The notes beneath the pieces were generated by a model, which was not told the origin of the DNA, searched no databases, and saw nothing but the letters and a program-made list of their open reading frames with translations. Shown piece after piece: positions 1,700 to 41,791 of a stretch of DNA of 64,000 bases. A program made the translations under genes and the position numbers. Origin of the DNA: Clostridiales bacterium (GTDB lineage Bacteria; Bacillota; Clostridia; Christensenellales; Pumilibacteraceae); assembly GCA_022508405.1 (NCBI GenBank), contig JAFLVI010000003.1:1-64000 (forward strand), read 5' to 3'. Within the stretch, counting starts at the first letter, position 1, and each line of letters starts with the position of its first letter.

Positions 1700-2746
1700 T
1701 TACGCACGCTTCACTTTTGTTTTAATCTTACGTGTGTTTCTTTTTACTTTGCTTTTAACACGAGTTCTAATTAAGAACCAGCAGTTGAACGCTATATATA
1801 TAATGCCTATTGCGCCGGTTATCGGGTACAGCAGACCGACAACCGAAGTAAAGCCTAATGCGCCTACCGCAAGTCCGCCGATTAGCACTATGCCGGCGGA
1901 TATTGTTTTGCTGTTTATAAAGCCGTGAATGTAGTCGTACACCGATTTAAACGCCGAAAGCATGGTGGTAAATATGGACGCGGCTATCACCGGCAGGCTT
2001 ATAATATACATTATTCTTCCGCTTTTAAGCGCAATCAACAGCATGGGCATATCGGCATGCGCCGCCGCGCACGACTGCAATGCACCCATAATGCACATCA
2101 AAAGTCCGGCAATAACAAGCGCGGCTACCGCGGACGACAGCAAAATTTCGCGCGGGGAAAGCTTGTGCACGGTGGTAAGCACCCCGCCGCCCAGTATCAT
2201 ATTCATTGCAACGTAAAGAACTATACTGTATATGTCTATTCTCCCGCCCTGCGATTTTAGCGGAAAGTCTATCGCACGCAGCGTACAGGCACACAAAAAC
2301 GCTATCATTATGGGCACAAGCACGGCGTTTGCCTTGATTACGCCTTTCAGTCCCTTTACGGCTATTACGGCGCACAGCAATCCCAAAAGTATAGAAGCAA
2401 ACGGACGGATATTTATAAACTCGGCGGATAGGCTGTCGGTGGCGGCAAGCATTGCGCCCAGCACCGTAACCGAATTGAACAGCATAAATATGTCGGCAAG
2501 CGGTCTGACCTTGCCGAACACTTCGCCGTTGACCTCGCCCATATCGGTCTTTTGCACGCGCCGCCCCACAAACAGAAAAAGCACAGAACACGCAAACACC
2601 ATAGCGCCCGCAATCAGCGCGATAAACACGTTGGGCACCGCGCCGAAAAAGGTTACGACTTCCCTGCCTGACGCAAAACCCGCGCCGATTACCGTGCCCA
2701 CAATAAGCATGGAAACGGATATAGACCGCAAAAACGACTTTAACAT
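1700..2746 (-). CDS. YkvI-like multi-pass membrane transporter protein
   Basis: 348 aa, MLIVGTVIGAGFASGREVVTFFG N-terminal motif typical of the YkvI family. Confidence 0.7.
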   Translation of the reverse strand: MLKSFLRSISVSMLIVGTVIGAGFASGREVVTFFGAVPNVFIALIAGAMVFACSVLFLFVGRRVQKTDMGEVNGEVFGKVRPLADIFMLFNSVTVLGAMLAATDSLSAEFINIRPFASILLGLLCAVIAVKGLKGVIKANAVLVPIMIAFLCACTLRAIDFPLKSQGGRIDIYSIVLYVAMNMILGGGVLTTVHKLSPREILLSSAVAALVIAGLLMCIMGALQSCAAAHADMPMLLIALKSGRIMYIISLPVIAASIFTTMLSAFKSVYDYIHGFINSKTISAGIVLIGGLAVGALGFTSVVGLLYPITGAIGIIYIAFNCWFLIRTRVKSKVKRNTRKIKTKVKRA

Positions 2747-2764
2747 ACTTTATTGTATGCAAGA

Positions 2765-2800
2765 AAATTCGGAATTCAGAATTCGGAATTCGGAATTATG
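2765..2800 (+). repeat. Heptameric GAATTCR tandem repeat
   Basis: GAATTCG/GAATTCA style units in tandem (ttcggaattcagaattcggaattcggaattatgg). Confidence 0.75.
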
Positions 2801-2830
2801 GTCGCTAAAGCGGCATTAAAGATGCAAAAC

Positions 2831-2848
2831 GCGCGCCAACGGCGCGCA
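2831..2848. terminator. GC-rich hairpin between genes
   Basis: GCGCGCC-aac-GGCGCGC. Confidence 0.5.
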
Positions 2849-2883
2849 TAAAATCTTGTCCTTATTTTTAATTCTTAATTCGC

Positions 2884-3606
2884 TCAGTCTTCGCTGACCT
2901 CGGTTTCGCCCGCTTTGGGCTCTACTTTTGTAGCAGGCTTACGGCGGTTGATTACGTTGCCGTTTATGACCAGCTCGTACCAGTATCCGAGATGAGCGGC
3001 AGCTTTTTCGGACAACGCCATGCGGGATAAATATATCTGCAAATACTCCATAGTCGCGGACGTATTGTCCATTTGGATCACAAGCCGTATCGTCTTTTTG
3101 GCTTTGTCAATCGCCAAATAATTCTTTTTTATGGATAGATTTACCCTGTCGTGAATATCGCGGCGGTCGGCGGTTTCGCGGCGAACACGACTACGGTGCG
3201 CGTCCGACTTATCCGCAATGATAAGCGCGGCGGCAACGGCGTTTACCGGCATGCCGTTTTCCTCCTCGTGATTGCCGATTGCCGAAATTATTACGGCAAC
3301 TTCTTTTGGGTCCATGCCCATGCGTATGAGAATATCGTACGCGAGCACCGAGCCGGTAAGCCCGTGATGCGTCCTGTTTATTGCGTTGCCTATATCGTGT
3401 ATCCAGCCTGCTATAGCGCCGAGTTCCACCGTGCGCTCGTCGTACCCGAGCGTGCTCAAAATATTTGCCGTGGTCTTTGATACATACCCCACGTGCCTAA
3501 GCCCATGCTCGGTGTAGCCGAGTGCGTTCAGACAATCGTTGCTTGCGGCAATCAAGCTTTTAAATTCTGTATTTTCCTTAACGTCGTTCAGCGTTATCAA
3601 ATCCAT
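2884..3606 (-). CDS. HD-domain phosphohydrolase
   Basis: 240 aa with GWIHDIGNA and HD-like pattern; SD aaaggaga before ATG. Confidence 0.7.
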   Translation of the reverse strand: MDLITLNDVKENTEFKSLIAASNDCLNALGYTEHGLRHVGYVSKTTANILSTLGYDERTVELGAIAGWIHDIGNAINRTHHGLTGSVLAYDILIRMGMDPKEVAVIISAIGNHEEENGMPVNAVAAALIIADKSDAHRSRVRRETADRRDIHDRVNLSIKKNYLAIDKAKKTIRLVIQMDNTSATMEYLQIYLSRMALSEKAAAHLGYWYELVINGNVINRRKPATKVEPKAGETEVSED

Positions 3607-3646
3607 TCTCCTTTCAGCGCACAGTGCGCAAAAAAAACACTTATAT

Positions 3647-4471
3647 TTATTTTATGCCTTTAATCGCCTTATAAAGCGGATCTGCCGAAAAATCGCGGTA
3701 GTGCGCGTCCACCGTGCCGCCAAGCGTCTCTATGGCGTTGCGTATCTCTATAAACTCGGCGTAATCGCAGTCGTCCAGCAACTTGTATAGGTCGGCGCAA
3801 GCCCTTTCGTCTCCGTATCTCCCCATAAGCGCCGCCACGTACGCTACGTTGGGATCGGACGAAAGAAGCATGCGCAAAAGTGCAAGAATCCTGTCGTCGC
3901 CTGCCGCGCAAAAAGTGAGCGGTTCCACATACATTTCTATTTTGGCTATGTCGTCCGAATTTTGTGCGCGCTGTAATAAAATTTCCTTAACTTCGTCCGC
4001 GCGCTCGCACAACTTTTCTATGCACTCCTCTTTTACGCACGCGTCTATATCGCGCTCCACCATGTCGATATAAAACTCGCTTTCCGCGCCACCCATTTCG
4101 TTTATCAGACTAAGGGTGACAAGCAAAAGCTTTTCGTCCGAAGAAGCCAAAGCAAGCTGTATTAAATCGTCTTTCAGCTCCGGCTCGGCGGCAATCCTGT
4201 CAAACAACAGCGAGTTGGGGTTATTTTCGCCCACGCACGAGCCCTTTAGAATATCCATAAGGTCGGAAGTAGGAATTTTGTTAAAGAACTCGGACGGCGA
4301 AATGCCGCCTATAACCTGCTGCGGCGAAGTAGCCCACTCTTGATAAATCCTATCCAAGTCGCGCGCAAAGTCGTCGGGCGAATCGTATTCGTCCTCGTGC
4401 TCACCGTAATATTTGTCGGCATAGTTTTCAAAAAGCTTGTCAAAATCGATAAAGTACGGATTGTTTTGCAT
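3647..4471 (-). CDS. HEAT-repeat-like protein, unknown function
   Basis: 274 aa, helical repeat pattern, acidic N-terminus; SD cgaggtg. Confidence 0.5.
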   Translation of the reverse strand: MQNNPYFIDFDKLFENYADKYYGEHEDEYDSPDDFARDLDRIYQEWATSPQQVIGGISPSEFFNKIPTSDLMDILKGSCVGENNPNSLLFDRIAAEPELKDDLIQLALASSDEKLLLVTLSLINEMGGAESEFYIDMVERDIDACVKEECIEKLCERADEVKEILLQRAQNSDDIAKIEMYVEPLTFCAAGDDRILALLRMLLSSDPNVAYVAALMGRYGDERACADLYKLLDDCDYAEFIEIRNAIETLGGTVDAHYRDFSADPLYKAIKGIK

Positions 4472-4502
4472 AAATCACCTCGTTATGGTTTTTGTATGGA
4501 TT

Positions 4503-6515
4503 TTACGGCTTTGTCATTACTGTTATTATAGACGACATCAACTTGTACGCCGAATTTGCCTGCGTCTTTGTTTCGTATCCGAGCGCAAAATGCACGCGCT
4601 CGTCTATGTCCTTGTCGTTAATATTAAATTTTGCCTTTACGGTGCGCCATAAAAAGTATGCCACATCGCGCGGACTTAATGCCGCATTCTTTAAAGGTTG
4701 CCGTATTTTTTTATAATACTCCGCCAAAAAAGGCAGAGCCTTTTGACAGCACATTACGGCAAGCGCATACGCCATGTAATATCCTTCGTCGGCGCTCTCG
4801 CATATCTTAGGCAAGCTTTCGCTCGATATCGGGCAAAAAGCCCGTTCCGCCAAAAACTCCGTTTTGCCCTTGTGCGCGCATAAAAGCCGTCCCAAAATCA
4901 CCGCTTTTACCAAATCTTCTATGTACGGCGAAACAAGCGCGTTGCGCATTTGCGCTTCCAACCTGCCGTCCGACGCCAGTATATTAAGAGTTTCAAACAT
5001 CAGCCTGACGATATTGCGCGAGTGTCTGAATTCCAGCGTTAAAAACACTTCCAACCCGTACTTAAACGGCTCGCTCTCTATCAGCTCGTTGCTTTCCGTA
5101 AAAAGCTCGGAATGGACAATGGCTATAATGTTATCCACCAACATGCCAAGCACCTTTTGCGGCGTTTGGTCTTGCAGCGGCATGCTCTCCACACCCGCTT
5201 TTGCCAATAAGTAAAAATACTGTGCGTTAAAGTCGTCATACTGTATTTGGGAAAGAGTCTTAAGCTCTCTTGTAGCACCGGCCCTATCGCCGGCATTGTA
5301 CAGCATTTGCGCGTGTATAGAACGCAGGTCAAACGAATTAAACTCGTCTATATATTGCTCCGCAAGTCCCATCGCATCTTCCGGCGTGCAGTACTTAACC
5401 GCAAACATAAGTGCTCTGTATACGTGGTCGGAATCCACGTAATCCGCCACGTCTATATTTTTGAGCGTTTCGGGAATTTTATCGTACTTTTCGGTAATCT
5501 CAAAAAGCGAGCATTGCAGTGTGCCCGCAAGTGCGCCGTCGGGCAATACGCCGAACGCGCGATCCAAAGCCGCTTGCGCCTCGTCGTATCTGTTTAAATC
5601 CATCATTATGTTGGAGCGAACGCATTCCGCACAGTAATACAGCCTGCCTGTACTGCGGTCTACGCAGTCAAGCTCTATAAGCGCCTTGTCGTACTCGCCT
5701 TCCACGCACATGCTTTGAGCACGCCTAAGCGCCAGCTTTGCGGCAAGGTCGGCAGGTCCGTCGTCCGACGAAAAAATTTCCGCATCAAGCTCGTCCGTGC
5801 CTGCGCTTTCAATCGTCTCTTCACCGCGAACAAGCTGCAGCATAACGTCAAACATTTCTCCGGCGTTGATTTTTTCTTCGATCGGATCGTTTTTAAGTTG
5901 AATAATCTTGTCGGCGGTGCCATTGACCGGCGTTGTTTTTTTGTCGGTCAATCCTTTAAACCGAATCACTTTGGGCTTTTTAGGCATTTTTTGCGCGTCG
6001 GAAGATTGAAGCGGCGCTTGCTCATTATCGAATGCAAAAAAGACTTCATCGGCTATTTCGCCGTAATCGGCGGCGATAAACATGCCGTCAAAGTCTATAT
6101 ACAGGCTGTCATCGTTAAATATATCCAGTCCGAATTCGGACAGCTCGTCCACCAGCTCCTTTACGTTTTGCCCGCGCCGCTCTATAAAATCGCTGATTCC
6201 GGCAATGCTGTTGGGATCGTGCTTGAGTATGGCAACGGCAAGCAAATTTCTGTATGTGACGCGACTGTCCGGATGCGTTATAAGATGCATCATAAATTCG
6301 CGAAACGCAAGCGGCAACAAATCTCTGTCGTCGCTGTCCTGCGTCATCAAAAAATACAGTATCCCCATTGCCGAGTGAAAGTCGGGATTGTGCTTGGTTT
6401 CCGAAAACTTGATAAGCTTATCAATCGCGCCGTCGTAATTTCCGCTTTCCAAACAGTCGGCAAACTCGCGTTTATATAGCGCAACAGCGCCGTTTGTGTT
6501 GAATTTTTTAATCAA
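4503..6515 (-). CDS. TPR-repeat-like protein, unknown function
   Basis: 670 aa with TPR-like helices (YDKALIELDCVDRSTGRLYYCAE, YDEAQAALDRAFGVLP); apparent TTG start. Confidence 0.55.
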   Translation of the reverse strand: MIKKFNTNGAVALYKREFADCLESGNYDGAIDKLIKFSETKHNPDFHSAMGILYFLMTQDSDDRDLLPLAFREFMMHLITHPDSRVTYRNLLAVAILKHDPNSIAGISDFIERRGQNVKELVDELSEFGLDIFNDDSLYIDFDGMFIAADYGEIADEVFFAFDNEQAPLQSSDAQKMPKKPKVIRFKGLTDKKTTPVNGTADKIIQLKNDPIEEKINAGEMFDVMLQLVRGEETIESAGTDELDAEIFSSDDGPADLAAKLALRRAQSMCVEGEYDKALIELDCVDRSTGRLYYCAECVRSNIMMDLNRYDEAQAALDRAFGVLPDGALAGTLQCSLFEITEKYDKIPETLKNIDVADYVDSDHVYRALMFAVKYCTPEDAMGLAEQYIDEFNSFDLRSIHAQMLYNAGDRAGATRELKTLSQIQYDDFNAQYFYLLAKAGVESMPLQDQTPQKVLGMLVDNIIAIVHSELFTESNELIESEPFKYGLEVFLTLEFRHSRNIVRLMFETLNILASDGRLEAQMRNALVSPYIEDLVKAVILGRLLCAHKGKTEFLAERAFCPISSESLPKICESADEGYYMAYALAVMCCQKALPFLAEYYKKIRQPLKNAALSPRDVAYFLWRTVKAKFNINDKDIDERVHFALGYETKTQANSAYKLMSSIITVMTKP

Positions 6516-39500: not shown

Positions 39501-40190
39501 TTAGCTGTTTGTATCGTCGTTGAATGCGGAACAAACCGCACTGTATATAGTATAAGCAATTTTTTGCTGATAGCTTGCGGTAATCAGCTTGCTCTCGTCC
39601 TGTGCGTTGGACAAAAACCCGCACTCGCACAGTATGGACGGATACTCACTGCAATTAAGTATGTAGTAGTCGCCTACCGCCGCCTGACGCGGACGGTCGT
39701 TTAGCACGTCGTTAAAGTAGTTTTGCACTATCCTTGCAAACCGCTCGCCCACCGAAGACGAATAAAACGTTTGCGCGCCCTTCACCGACGAAACCGGATA
39801 CGAATTGCAATGTACGCTTATGACAAGATCTGGCGAATTTTTGGTTAGTATATCCTTTCTTGCGCGCATATCTTCGCGCTTGTTATACTTTCCACCGCTT
39901 ACCGCCGAAGAATTGCTGCGCGTGAGTATTACGTTGTAACCGTCGTTTTGCAAGTACTTTGCCAAATACTTTGCAATGGACAGATTTACATCGCTCTCCT
40001 TTGTGCCGGTGGTGATACCGGTAACTCCGCCGTCCGCACCGCCGTGACCTGCGTCTATGACTATGGTAATGCCGTTGCTCGTCTTGGCGGAAGCTATGAC
40101 TGTTGCCGCCGTCGTAACCGCCGCAATCAACGCCAGCACTACGGAAAGCACCGCGACAATCGTTTTCTTTTTTATCGTAATAAACGCCAT
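39501..40190 (-). CDS. N-acetylmuramoyl-L-alanine amidase (Amidase_3, CwlD-like)
   Basis: IVIDAGHGGADGG, SVHCNSYP, ILCECGFLSNAQDE; signal anchor; start at ATG 40190 with SD ggaggg. Confidence 0.9.
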   Translation of the reverse strand: MAFITIKKKTIVAVLSVVLALIAAVTTAATVIASAKTSNGITIVIDAGHGGADGGVTGITTGTKESDVNLSIAKYLAKYLQNDGYNVILTRSNSSAVSGGKYNKREDMRARKDILTKNSPDLVISVHCNSYPVSSVKGAQTFYSSSVGERFARIVQNYFNDVLNDRPRQAAVGDYYILNCSEYPSILCECGFLSNAQDESKLITASYQQKIAYTIYSAVCSAFNDDTNS

Positions 40191-40215
40191 GCGTTTGCGC
40201 TCCCTCCCAAAGCAA

Positions 40216-40308
40216 AGTGGATAACTGCTCGTGTTATGCACGGTTATCTACATTATTCTACATATTTACACACATACAATGTGCATAACTATGTTCATAA
40301 GTGCATAA
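40216..40308. promoter_or_regulatory. Cluster of DnaA-box-like 9-mers
   Basis: TTATCCACT, TTATGCACG, TTATCTACA, TTATGCACA, TTATGAACA, TTATGCACT (both strands) within 93 bp. Confidence 0.5.
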
Positions 40309-40327
40309 CTTGATTGTTTTTTTGCGC

Positions 40328-41791
40328 TTAGTGCGTGGAATACAACTGAACGTTGCCGTTTAGCCAAGCGTCGAACAGCGGCTTAAGCTGGCGCTTGGAC
40401 GATTTTTCCATAGCACCCATAAGGTCCTGCGGCTCGGCAATACCGAATTTGTTGGACGAGTAGTACTTTTTAAGTCCTGCCAAAAACTTTTGCGTGCCCA
40501 CGGTGTTGCGAACGTCGTCCAGCATGAGCGCGCCTTTTACGTAAATCATATACGTATATTCGGTTTCGCCTGAATACTCGTTTAACGCGCGCGTCATTGT
40601 TGTGTCGCCCAGCCCGTTGTTTTTGTACGTTTCACAGTATAACATGTATGCGCCCAGCGCGTCCGCCCTTTTTGCGTCAAACGTGTATTTGTAACCGTCC
40701 GCGTACTCATAGAACATCATGGTGGAATATTCAGCCATGGCCTCGTCCAGCCACGAATATTTAACCTCGTCGTTGCCCACTACTCCGTACCACCACTGGT
40801 GCGCCGTTTCGTGTACAATTATATCCAGCTTGCTGTCGCCGCTGTACGCGTCCGAAATCATGGAAAGCGCGGGATATTCCATGCCGCCCTGCAAAAATCC
40901 GGTTTGCACAACGGTATACTCCTTGTACGGATACGCGCCGAACTTTTCGCCGAATATGCGCACCGCGTCTATTGCCGCATTAAGCGCTTTTTCGGGATCG
41001 GAGTCCGAATAGTAATAATAATTGACTATAGTCGATCCGCTACGTCCGCTCATTTTTTGGTACTCGCCCAACACCGCCGCAAAGTCCCTTACCGAATGCG
41101 CGTTTATCTTATAAGTGACTGCGTTTTCCGATTGGGTCTTTCCCGTGATTTCGCCGGTAGCCGCGCATTCGTAATTTTGAGGAACGGTCAGCTTGACCGA
41201 ATAGTTCGCGCACTCGCTGAAAAACGGATCGCCTACGGAATAGTACGGGTCGGCCACAAACGCGCCGTCGCGGTACATGCACGCTATCGGATAGAAATTG
41301 GCAAGGTTGACCGACTTGTCGGTATAGCCAAACCTGTGTTTGACTTCCGGAAGTTTGACAGAATAGTTTATGCTTATTCGCGTTTTTTCGGTTGGATCCA
41401 AAGTTCCGCCCAGCGCAACCACCAAAATGTTTTCGTCATCGCCCGAAACGGTTATGTCCTTGGCTTTGCCGTTTACGGTAACGCTGTCTATCTTCATCAC
41501 ACTGTAGCTTCTGCCGTTAGGGAATGCTTCCGTTATGCGACTGTCGGGGACGGGACAGTAATTTGCTCCTTCGCGGTAGGCATTGGGATATAAATGAAAC
41601 CATAATTCTTTAAGCGGCACGTCGTTGTTGTTTACATAGTCGCACGTGACGGACGCGGTAAGAATGTTATCCGCGGAAAGCGTCGCGTCTATTGTGTACT
41701 TTGTAAGCTCTGTCTTCTTTTCGGTAGAACAAGCACAAAGCGGCAACGCAAGCGCCGCCACGGCAAACACCGCAATCAGTTTTTTTCGCAT
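40328..41791 (-). CDS. M1-family (gluzincin) metallopeptidase, putative lipoprotein
   Basis: HETAHQWWYGVVGNDEVKYSWLDEAMAEY zinc motif; N-terminal signal with LPLCAC; SD aaggag. Confidence 0.9.
   Translation of the reverse strand: MRKKLIAVFAVAALALPLCACSTEKKTELTKYTIDATLSADNILTASVTCDYVNNNDVPLKELWFHLYPNAYREGANYCPVPDSRITEAFPNGRSYSVMKIDSVTVNGKAKDITVSGDDENILVVALGGTLDPTEKTRISINYSVKLPEVKHRFGYTDKSVNLANFYPIACMYRDGAFVADPYYSVGDPFFSECANYSVKLTVPQNYECAATGEITGKTQSENAVTYKINAHSVRDFAAVLGEYQKMSGRSGSTIVNYYYYSDSDPEKALNAAIDAVRIFGEKFGAYPYKEYTVVQTGFLQGGMEYPALSMISDAYSGDSKLDIIVHETAHQWWYGVVGNDEVKYSWLDEAMAEYSTMMFYEYADGYKYTFDAKRADALGAYMLYCETYKNNGLGDTTMTRALNEYSGETEYTYMIYVKGALMLDDVRNTVGTQKFLAGLKKYYSSNKFGIAEPQDLMGAMEKSSKRQLKPLFDAWLNGNVQLYSTH

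Follow-up and report, generated by a model that had tools for sequence, protein, structure and literature searches.

A single-copy triad of DnaA boxes beside a CwlD-like amidase gene, a candidate DnaA operator in uncultured Clostridia

Introduction

Why should a dense cluster of DnaA boxes lie away from any dnaA gene, between a peptidase gene and the gene for a cell-wall amidase? The question is raised by a 93-bp segment (40216-40308) of a 64,000-nucleotide stretch of clostridial DNA, analysed here as a whole and referred to as the window, which is part of contig C23 in a genome of 1.5 Mb, 87 contigs and 82% completeness. Loci with DnaA boxes outside oriC are well studied in few model organisms. 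A sequence-only reading of the window had offered two answers, a titration or reactivation locus for DnaA resembling datA or DARS, or part of an origin. Here, we weigh these together with a third, namely that the element may be an oriC-type DnaA assembly site serving as the operator of the CwlD-like amidase, which we consider the best explanation at a probability of roughly 0.45. Literature searches for DnaA together with regulation of an amidase or a cell-wall hydrolase found no direct report, and none of DnaA controlling a peptidoglycan amidase. A single, strictly spaced and widely conserved module of this kind would be a compact target for the coupling of replication initiation to cell-wall cutting.

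A dense cluster with a narrower conserved core

The six 9-mers originally listed for the segment, each with zero or one mismatch, were all found at the coordinates and on the strands claimed for them, as was a weak seventh (ATTTACACA at 40264), for which a closer match, TTACACACA, begins at 40266. The segment is also AT-rich and non-coding as described, and lies between two minus-strand genes encoding an M1 peptidase and the amidase (Table 1). It holds 7 DnaA boxes with at most one mismatch per 93 bp, while the runner-up among the 93-bp stretches of the 64-kb window holds 2; no comparable density of near-consensus boxes is found elsewhere in the window. Set against the rest of the window, the cluster has the dense boxes outside oriC that are typical of DnaA-box clusters (DBC). 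Chance assembly in an AT-rich spacer is scarcely credible as an explanation, for seven sites were reached by none of 5,000 first-order Markov copies of the spacer and none of 5,000 shuffles (0/10,000 in all), and conservation of the element extends over 19 same-genus genomes and several further families.

Mere abundance of the consensus was considered as an explanation and rejected: the exact consensus TTATNCACA alone is without enrichment in the window (3 found against 2.2 expected), and the 28 occurrences of TTATCCACA in the whole genome (6 for the reversed control) are scattered. An Rfam search gave no match at the cluster locus, and no sigma-70-like or consensus promoter was found in the intergenic region 40191-40327.

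Table 1. Features of the element and its neighbours in the window
Feature	Coordinates	Strand	Remarks
CwlD-like N-acetylmuramoyl-L-alanine amidase	39501..40190	-	PF01520, E 7e-45; constant neighbour of the element
Intergenic region with element	40191..40327	.	137 bp, 38% GC
Weak box TTATCCACT	40216..40224	-	retention in relatives not general
Weak box TTATGCACG	40234..40242	+	retention in relatives not general
Weak box TTATCTACA	40244..40252	+	9-mer match
Weak box TTACACACA	40266..40274	+	opposite orientation to triad; comparable weak boxes, also reversed, in 6 to 9 of 19 relatives
DnaA-box triad TTATGCACTTATGAACATAGTTATGCACA	40280..40308	-	29 bp; aligned in 19 same-genus loci; single copy per genome
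Box 3 TTATGCACA	40280..40288	-	exact consensus; 3-bp gap (TAG) to box 2, forming a 'double DnaA box'
Box 2 TTATGAACA	40292..40300	-	TTATGCACA in most relatives
Box 1 TTATGCACT	40300..40308	-	1-bp overlap with box 2
M1-family peptidase	40328..41791	-	PF01433, E 1e-19; neighbour on the opposite side, differs in other families

While the cluster is genuine, the functional unit is narrower than had been claimed, as relatives conserve only the three boxes at 40280-40308. Read on the minus strand from 40308 to 40280, this triad has the layout TTATNCACT-TATNCACA-N-AG-TTATNCACA, with boxes starting at +0, +8 and +20. The anticipated conservation of spacing was borne out, with the same three starts in one orientation in 18/18 other same-genus loci, which had been collected through the adjacent amidase gene and independently of the triad. 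Across the 19 aligned same-genus loci, the information content is 1.81 bits per column within the 29-bp triad and 0.25 upstream of it; the two 40-bp stretches that follow have 0.49 and 0.23, respectively. Retention among relatives is loose for the other four sites (40216, 40234, 40244 and 40266).

The triad is also single. A search of 61 genomes with the triad pattern (up to 3 mismatches) found exactly one copy in 19 of the 20 same-genus genomes; G008, the sole genome without it, is very fragmented and lacks a match to the amidase as well. Searches with the reversed pattern as control, in 61, 396 and 391 genomes, returned 0 matches each time.

Distribution across genomes

How far the element extends beyond the genus was addressed by an exact-pattern scan of 84,980 genomes that used the triad pattern only, independently of the neighbouring gene. 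It returned 47 copies, 37 of them 27-302 bp upstream of an amidase start, and L102, with the amidase about 244 bp away, is a 38th amidase-linked copy. The arrangement expected of an operator, a double DnaA box upstream of a gene, is thus amidase-linked in 38 of the 47 exact matches. As for the others, the sequence of L114 is cut at the element; L095 and L116 carry the triad at a classical oriC, in the dnaA-dnaN interval with a skew switch; L108 (beside parB) and L119 (beside leuS) are two exact copies of one genome; L129 lies upstream of nadD; and L085, L087 and L115 are the remaining copies outside the amidase-linked set. An order-wide search of 396 genomes found the triad in 64, chiefly from families f1 (genera g1 and g5), f9, f17, f19, f20 and f30, and in all 28 newly fetched loci it lies beside the amidase. 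A class-wide search added one further genome, where the triad is upstream of dnaA in the parA-dnaA interval (L278); outside the order, the same triad is found at oriC beside dnaA. Many families of the order have the amidase without the triad, a point against an operator role, and the amidase tree, with its patchy support and arbitrary root, cannot order the gains, losses and flips of the triad.

The single copy, the unvarying spacing and the conservation in several families together strongly support a true extra-oriC DnaA-box locus. Because its spacing and sequence have been kept across many genera while the flanks diverge, selection acts on the triad now, and it would represent an evolutionarily guarded candidate landing site for DnaA in several families of uncultured gut Clostridia.

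Relation to the replication origin

An active replication origin, or part of one, would suit the AT-rich sequence, the dense boxes and the presence of the same triad in real origins elsewhere. At this locus it is nevertheless highly improbable. GC skew is uniformly negative along the whole window, positive along all 387 kb in G017 (same genus, element at 156.6 kb) and uniform along the 100 kb that surround the element in G063, with no switch at the element in any of the three. The neighbours in the window are the M1 peptidase and amidase genes rather than dnaA, dnaN, parB or parS; parS is found at G000:C20, and the skew switch of same-genus genomes lies near parB/parS on other contigs (G001:C1, G002:C23, G005:C13 and G000:C20). 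Uniform skew here, with the switch and parS elsewhere, refutes the proposal of an origin at this locus, whereas the other part of the sequence-only reading, that of an extra-oriC DnaA-box locus, stands on single copy, spacing and conservation.

In several genomes, and in most of those examined, the element lies well away from the replication origin. On the 1.1-Mb contig of G061, sampled skew shows a terminus-type change, plus to minus, at about 210-260 kb and an origin-type change, minus to plus, at about 840 kb near dnaA, which places the element, at 546 kb, in mid-arm and about 290 kb from the candidate origin. For G062, skew turns from minus to plus at about 485 kb, at the position of parA-parB and of a 1.9-kb spacer containing parS sites, and the element is at 148 kb. 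Its position relative to the origin is not fixed, as in G044 a skew switch with a box cluster lies about 10 kb away from it. In G024, one triad copy falls within an extensive box array by parB, where the skew switches; in G054 the element, with recF alongside, is close to a local change in skew that may or may not mark the origin.

These settings bear on the idea that the triad descends from an ancestral oriC core, as a relic or copy that stayed next to the amidase gene when the dnaA-dnaN-recF region was rearranged, and that it now has little or changed function. The matching triads at oriC in L095, L116 and L278, the array of G024 and the adjoining recF in L058, L089 and L097 all point this way. 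We still regard it as unlikely, given that spacing and sequence are kept across genera while flanks diverge, yet relic status and function are not exclusive of each other.

The amidase as constant neighbour

If the element is not an origin, what distinguishes its surroundings is the amidase gene. Its product is called CwlD-like here with a score of 174.9 bits against TIGR02883, which is under the cut-off of 221.55. The open reading frame listed for it, beginning with GTG at 40241, is over-extended, and the start was placed at the ATG at 40190 since relatives align from there. On the opposite side, the gene varies between the M1 peptidase, recF (the three loci named above), mrnC-like, ferritin-like and BioY-like genes, and others (names except M1 read from the sequences). 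Both geometry and distance vary as well: the triad has the same orientation as the amidase in the window's genus and the reversed one in every other amidase-linked case, and the distance from triad to amidase start ranges over 27-302 bp in the exact-match loci. A coding role for the triad, as an N-terminal extension of the amidase (the frame is open in some relatives), was rejected, since triad-to-start distances fall in all three frames and orientations are opposite between families.

The constancy of the amidase, the changing gene on the other side and the unfixed distance to the origin favour the operator reading. As E. coli DnaA favours double boxes with gaps of 2-3 bp (PMC11317965), DnaA is predicted to bind boxes 2 and 3, with their 3-bp gap, plus the overlapping box 1. 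Bound DnaA would then control transcription of the downstream CwlD-like amidase, probably via repression or a roadblock, and peptidoglycan cutting would thereby be coupled to DnaA, through either its level or its nucleotide state. We infer the binding of DnaA, the resulting change in amidase expression and the sign of this effect. The arrangement suggests that DnaA may control cell-wall remodelling too, or may itself be regulated at the element.

According to another explanation, the element would be a DnaA-control locus like datA, DARS or the clusters of B. subtilis, at which titration or a change of nucleotide state times initiation, with the amidase a mere neighbour. The flipped orientation, the variable distance to the amidase and the lack of a recognisable promoter keep this titration or DARS-like reading alive, as do the single copy, the three-box core, the position far from the origin in G061 and G062, and a second conserved block about 14 bp beyond the triad in family f20, placed as the helper-protein sites are in DARS2. 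We hold it to be less likely than the operator: strong boxes number only three, and the amidase is a constant neighbour, whereas the distance to the candidate origin changes from family to family (about 10 kb in G044). Gene regulation would accordingly fit somewhat better than a datA/DARS-like role.

DnaA and the fifth position of the boxes

The window genome encodes a full DnaA (P0003; TIGR00362, 473 bits) with the motif GGKEHTT. The helix-turn-helix motif reads [RK]EHTT in this protein and in 9/9 readable same-genus DnaA proteins (G019, without a readable motif, was left out) and DHTT or DHST in ten from other genera or families. The changed residue aligns with Asp433 of E. coli DnaA (1j1v; residue number counted by hand), and its equivalent is Glu throughout the genus. 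Asp433 is listed as base-contacting in E. coli and as conserved in Firmicutes (PMC7561715). In the DNA, position 5 of boxes 2 and 3 is G in 19/19 same-genus copies (TTATG), and in the other copies (n=45) it is C in 41 for box 2 and 43 for box 3 (TTATC). Position 5 of the DnaA box has been reported to be unimportant for binding in E. coli (PMC5043019). Being confined to one clade, Glu433 and G5 count as one event, and the apparent match between protein and boxes is a lead, not proof. A genus with D433E would offer a natural experiment on how DnaA recognises its boxes.

The same shift bears on whether the sites belong to DnaA at all. An operator for a different DNA-binding protein whose site resembles a DnaA box would account for the AG spacer and for the invariant 8/12-bp spacing, both of which would suit another cooperative regulator. 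This is improbable, because all three 9-mers fit the DnaA consensus, the same triad occurs at oriC elsewhere, and the box sequence shifts in the very genus whose DnaA has an altered base-contacting residue. Returning to the operator, its fullest version can be put forward tentatively: several families of uncultured Clostridia may have DnaA directly time the amidase through a single-copy, oriC-type three-box module outside the origin, and the module of one genus may have changed together with a base-contacting residue of DnaA (Asp433 to Glu, TTATC to TTATG).

Comparison with known systems

The closest single site is the DnaA site of E. coli nrdA, TTATCCACAaagTTATGCACT, which is nearly boxes 2-3 of the triad, with two boxes and a 3-bp gap upstream of a gene (PMC11317965). 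The element here differs in its third box with 1-bp overlap and in its gene, a cell-wall amidase, and is known from sequence. The extra-oriC clusters of B. subtilis, likewise a member of the Bacillota, also include several upstream of genes such as sda (PMC4447404, PMC5295017); these have 4 to 11 boxes each at six loci outside the origin, unlike the one locus with a fixed three-box core found here. E. coli DARS1 and DARS2 share with the triad a core of three DnaA boxes (at fixed spacing in the triad), the 3-bp double box and an intergenic location away from oriC (PMC4585315, PMC4245941). DARS loci, however, depend on flanking or IHF/Fis regions and work on ADP-DnaA by stimulating the release of its ADP, and reports of Fis are limited to relatives of E. 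coli (PMC4245941). Moreover, DARS loci hold a conserved position with respect to oriC from one E. coli strain to another, while the distance of the element from the candidate origin changes between the families compared here (about 10 kb in G044 and about 290 kb in G061, in draft genomes). E. coli datA is likewise a non-coding DnaA-box cluster away from oriC (PMC5295017), with five high-affinity boxes in about 1 kb and an IHF site, and together with IHF promotes the hydrolysis of DnaA-ATP; three strong and four weak boxes in 93 bp are found here. Finally, bacterial oriC has the same triad beside dnaA in L095, L116 and L278 and near parB in G024, and the window element differs from it in not being at a skew switch and in having no long box array.

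Further observations on candidate origins, dnaA and family f20

AT-rich spacers at G005:C13:98734-99020 and G001:C1:57037-57325 each hold 5 weak DnaA boxes and lie 4.8-5.1 kb from parS, which makes them candidates for the oriC of the genus. Long AT-rich spacers are also seen by parA-parB, at or near the skew switch, in G062 (C1:485573-487455) and G061 (C1:851184-852516). These have several parS sites and almost no DnaA boxes, which would make the true origin of these two genomes unusual in box content. The dnaA gene of L002 (G000:C56, 7873-10822) lies apart from dnaN (C41); its neighbours are a DUF1934 gene on one side and rsmI/tilS-type genes on the other, the spacer upstream of it is free of DnaA boxes, and type I restriction-modification M and S-like genes are nearby (2089-5984). 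The second conserved block, TGTGGACAACCTGTTTCACA-N5-TATGAAACGGACAAGC, is confined to family f20 (L088, L106 and others) and consists of a fourth DnaA-like box and an inverted repeat, GTTTCA-N9-TGAAAC, that resembles split parS half-sites; it could belong to the promoter of the ferritin-like gene.
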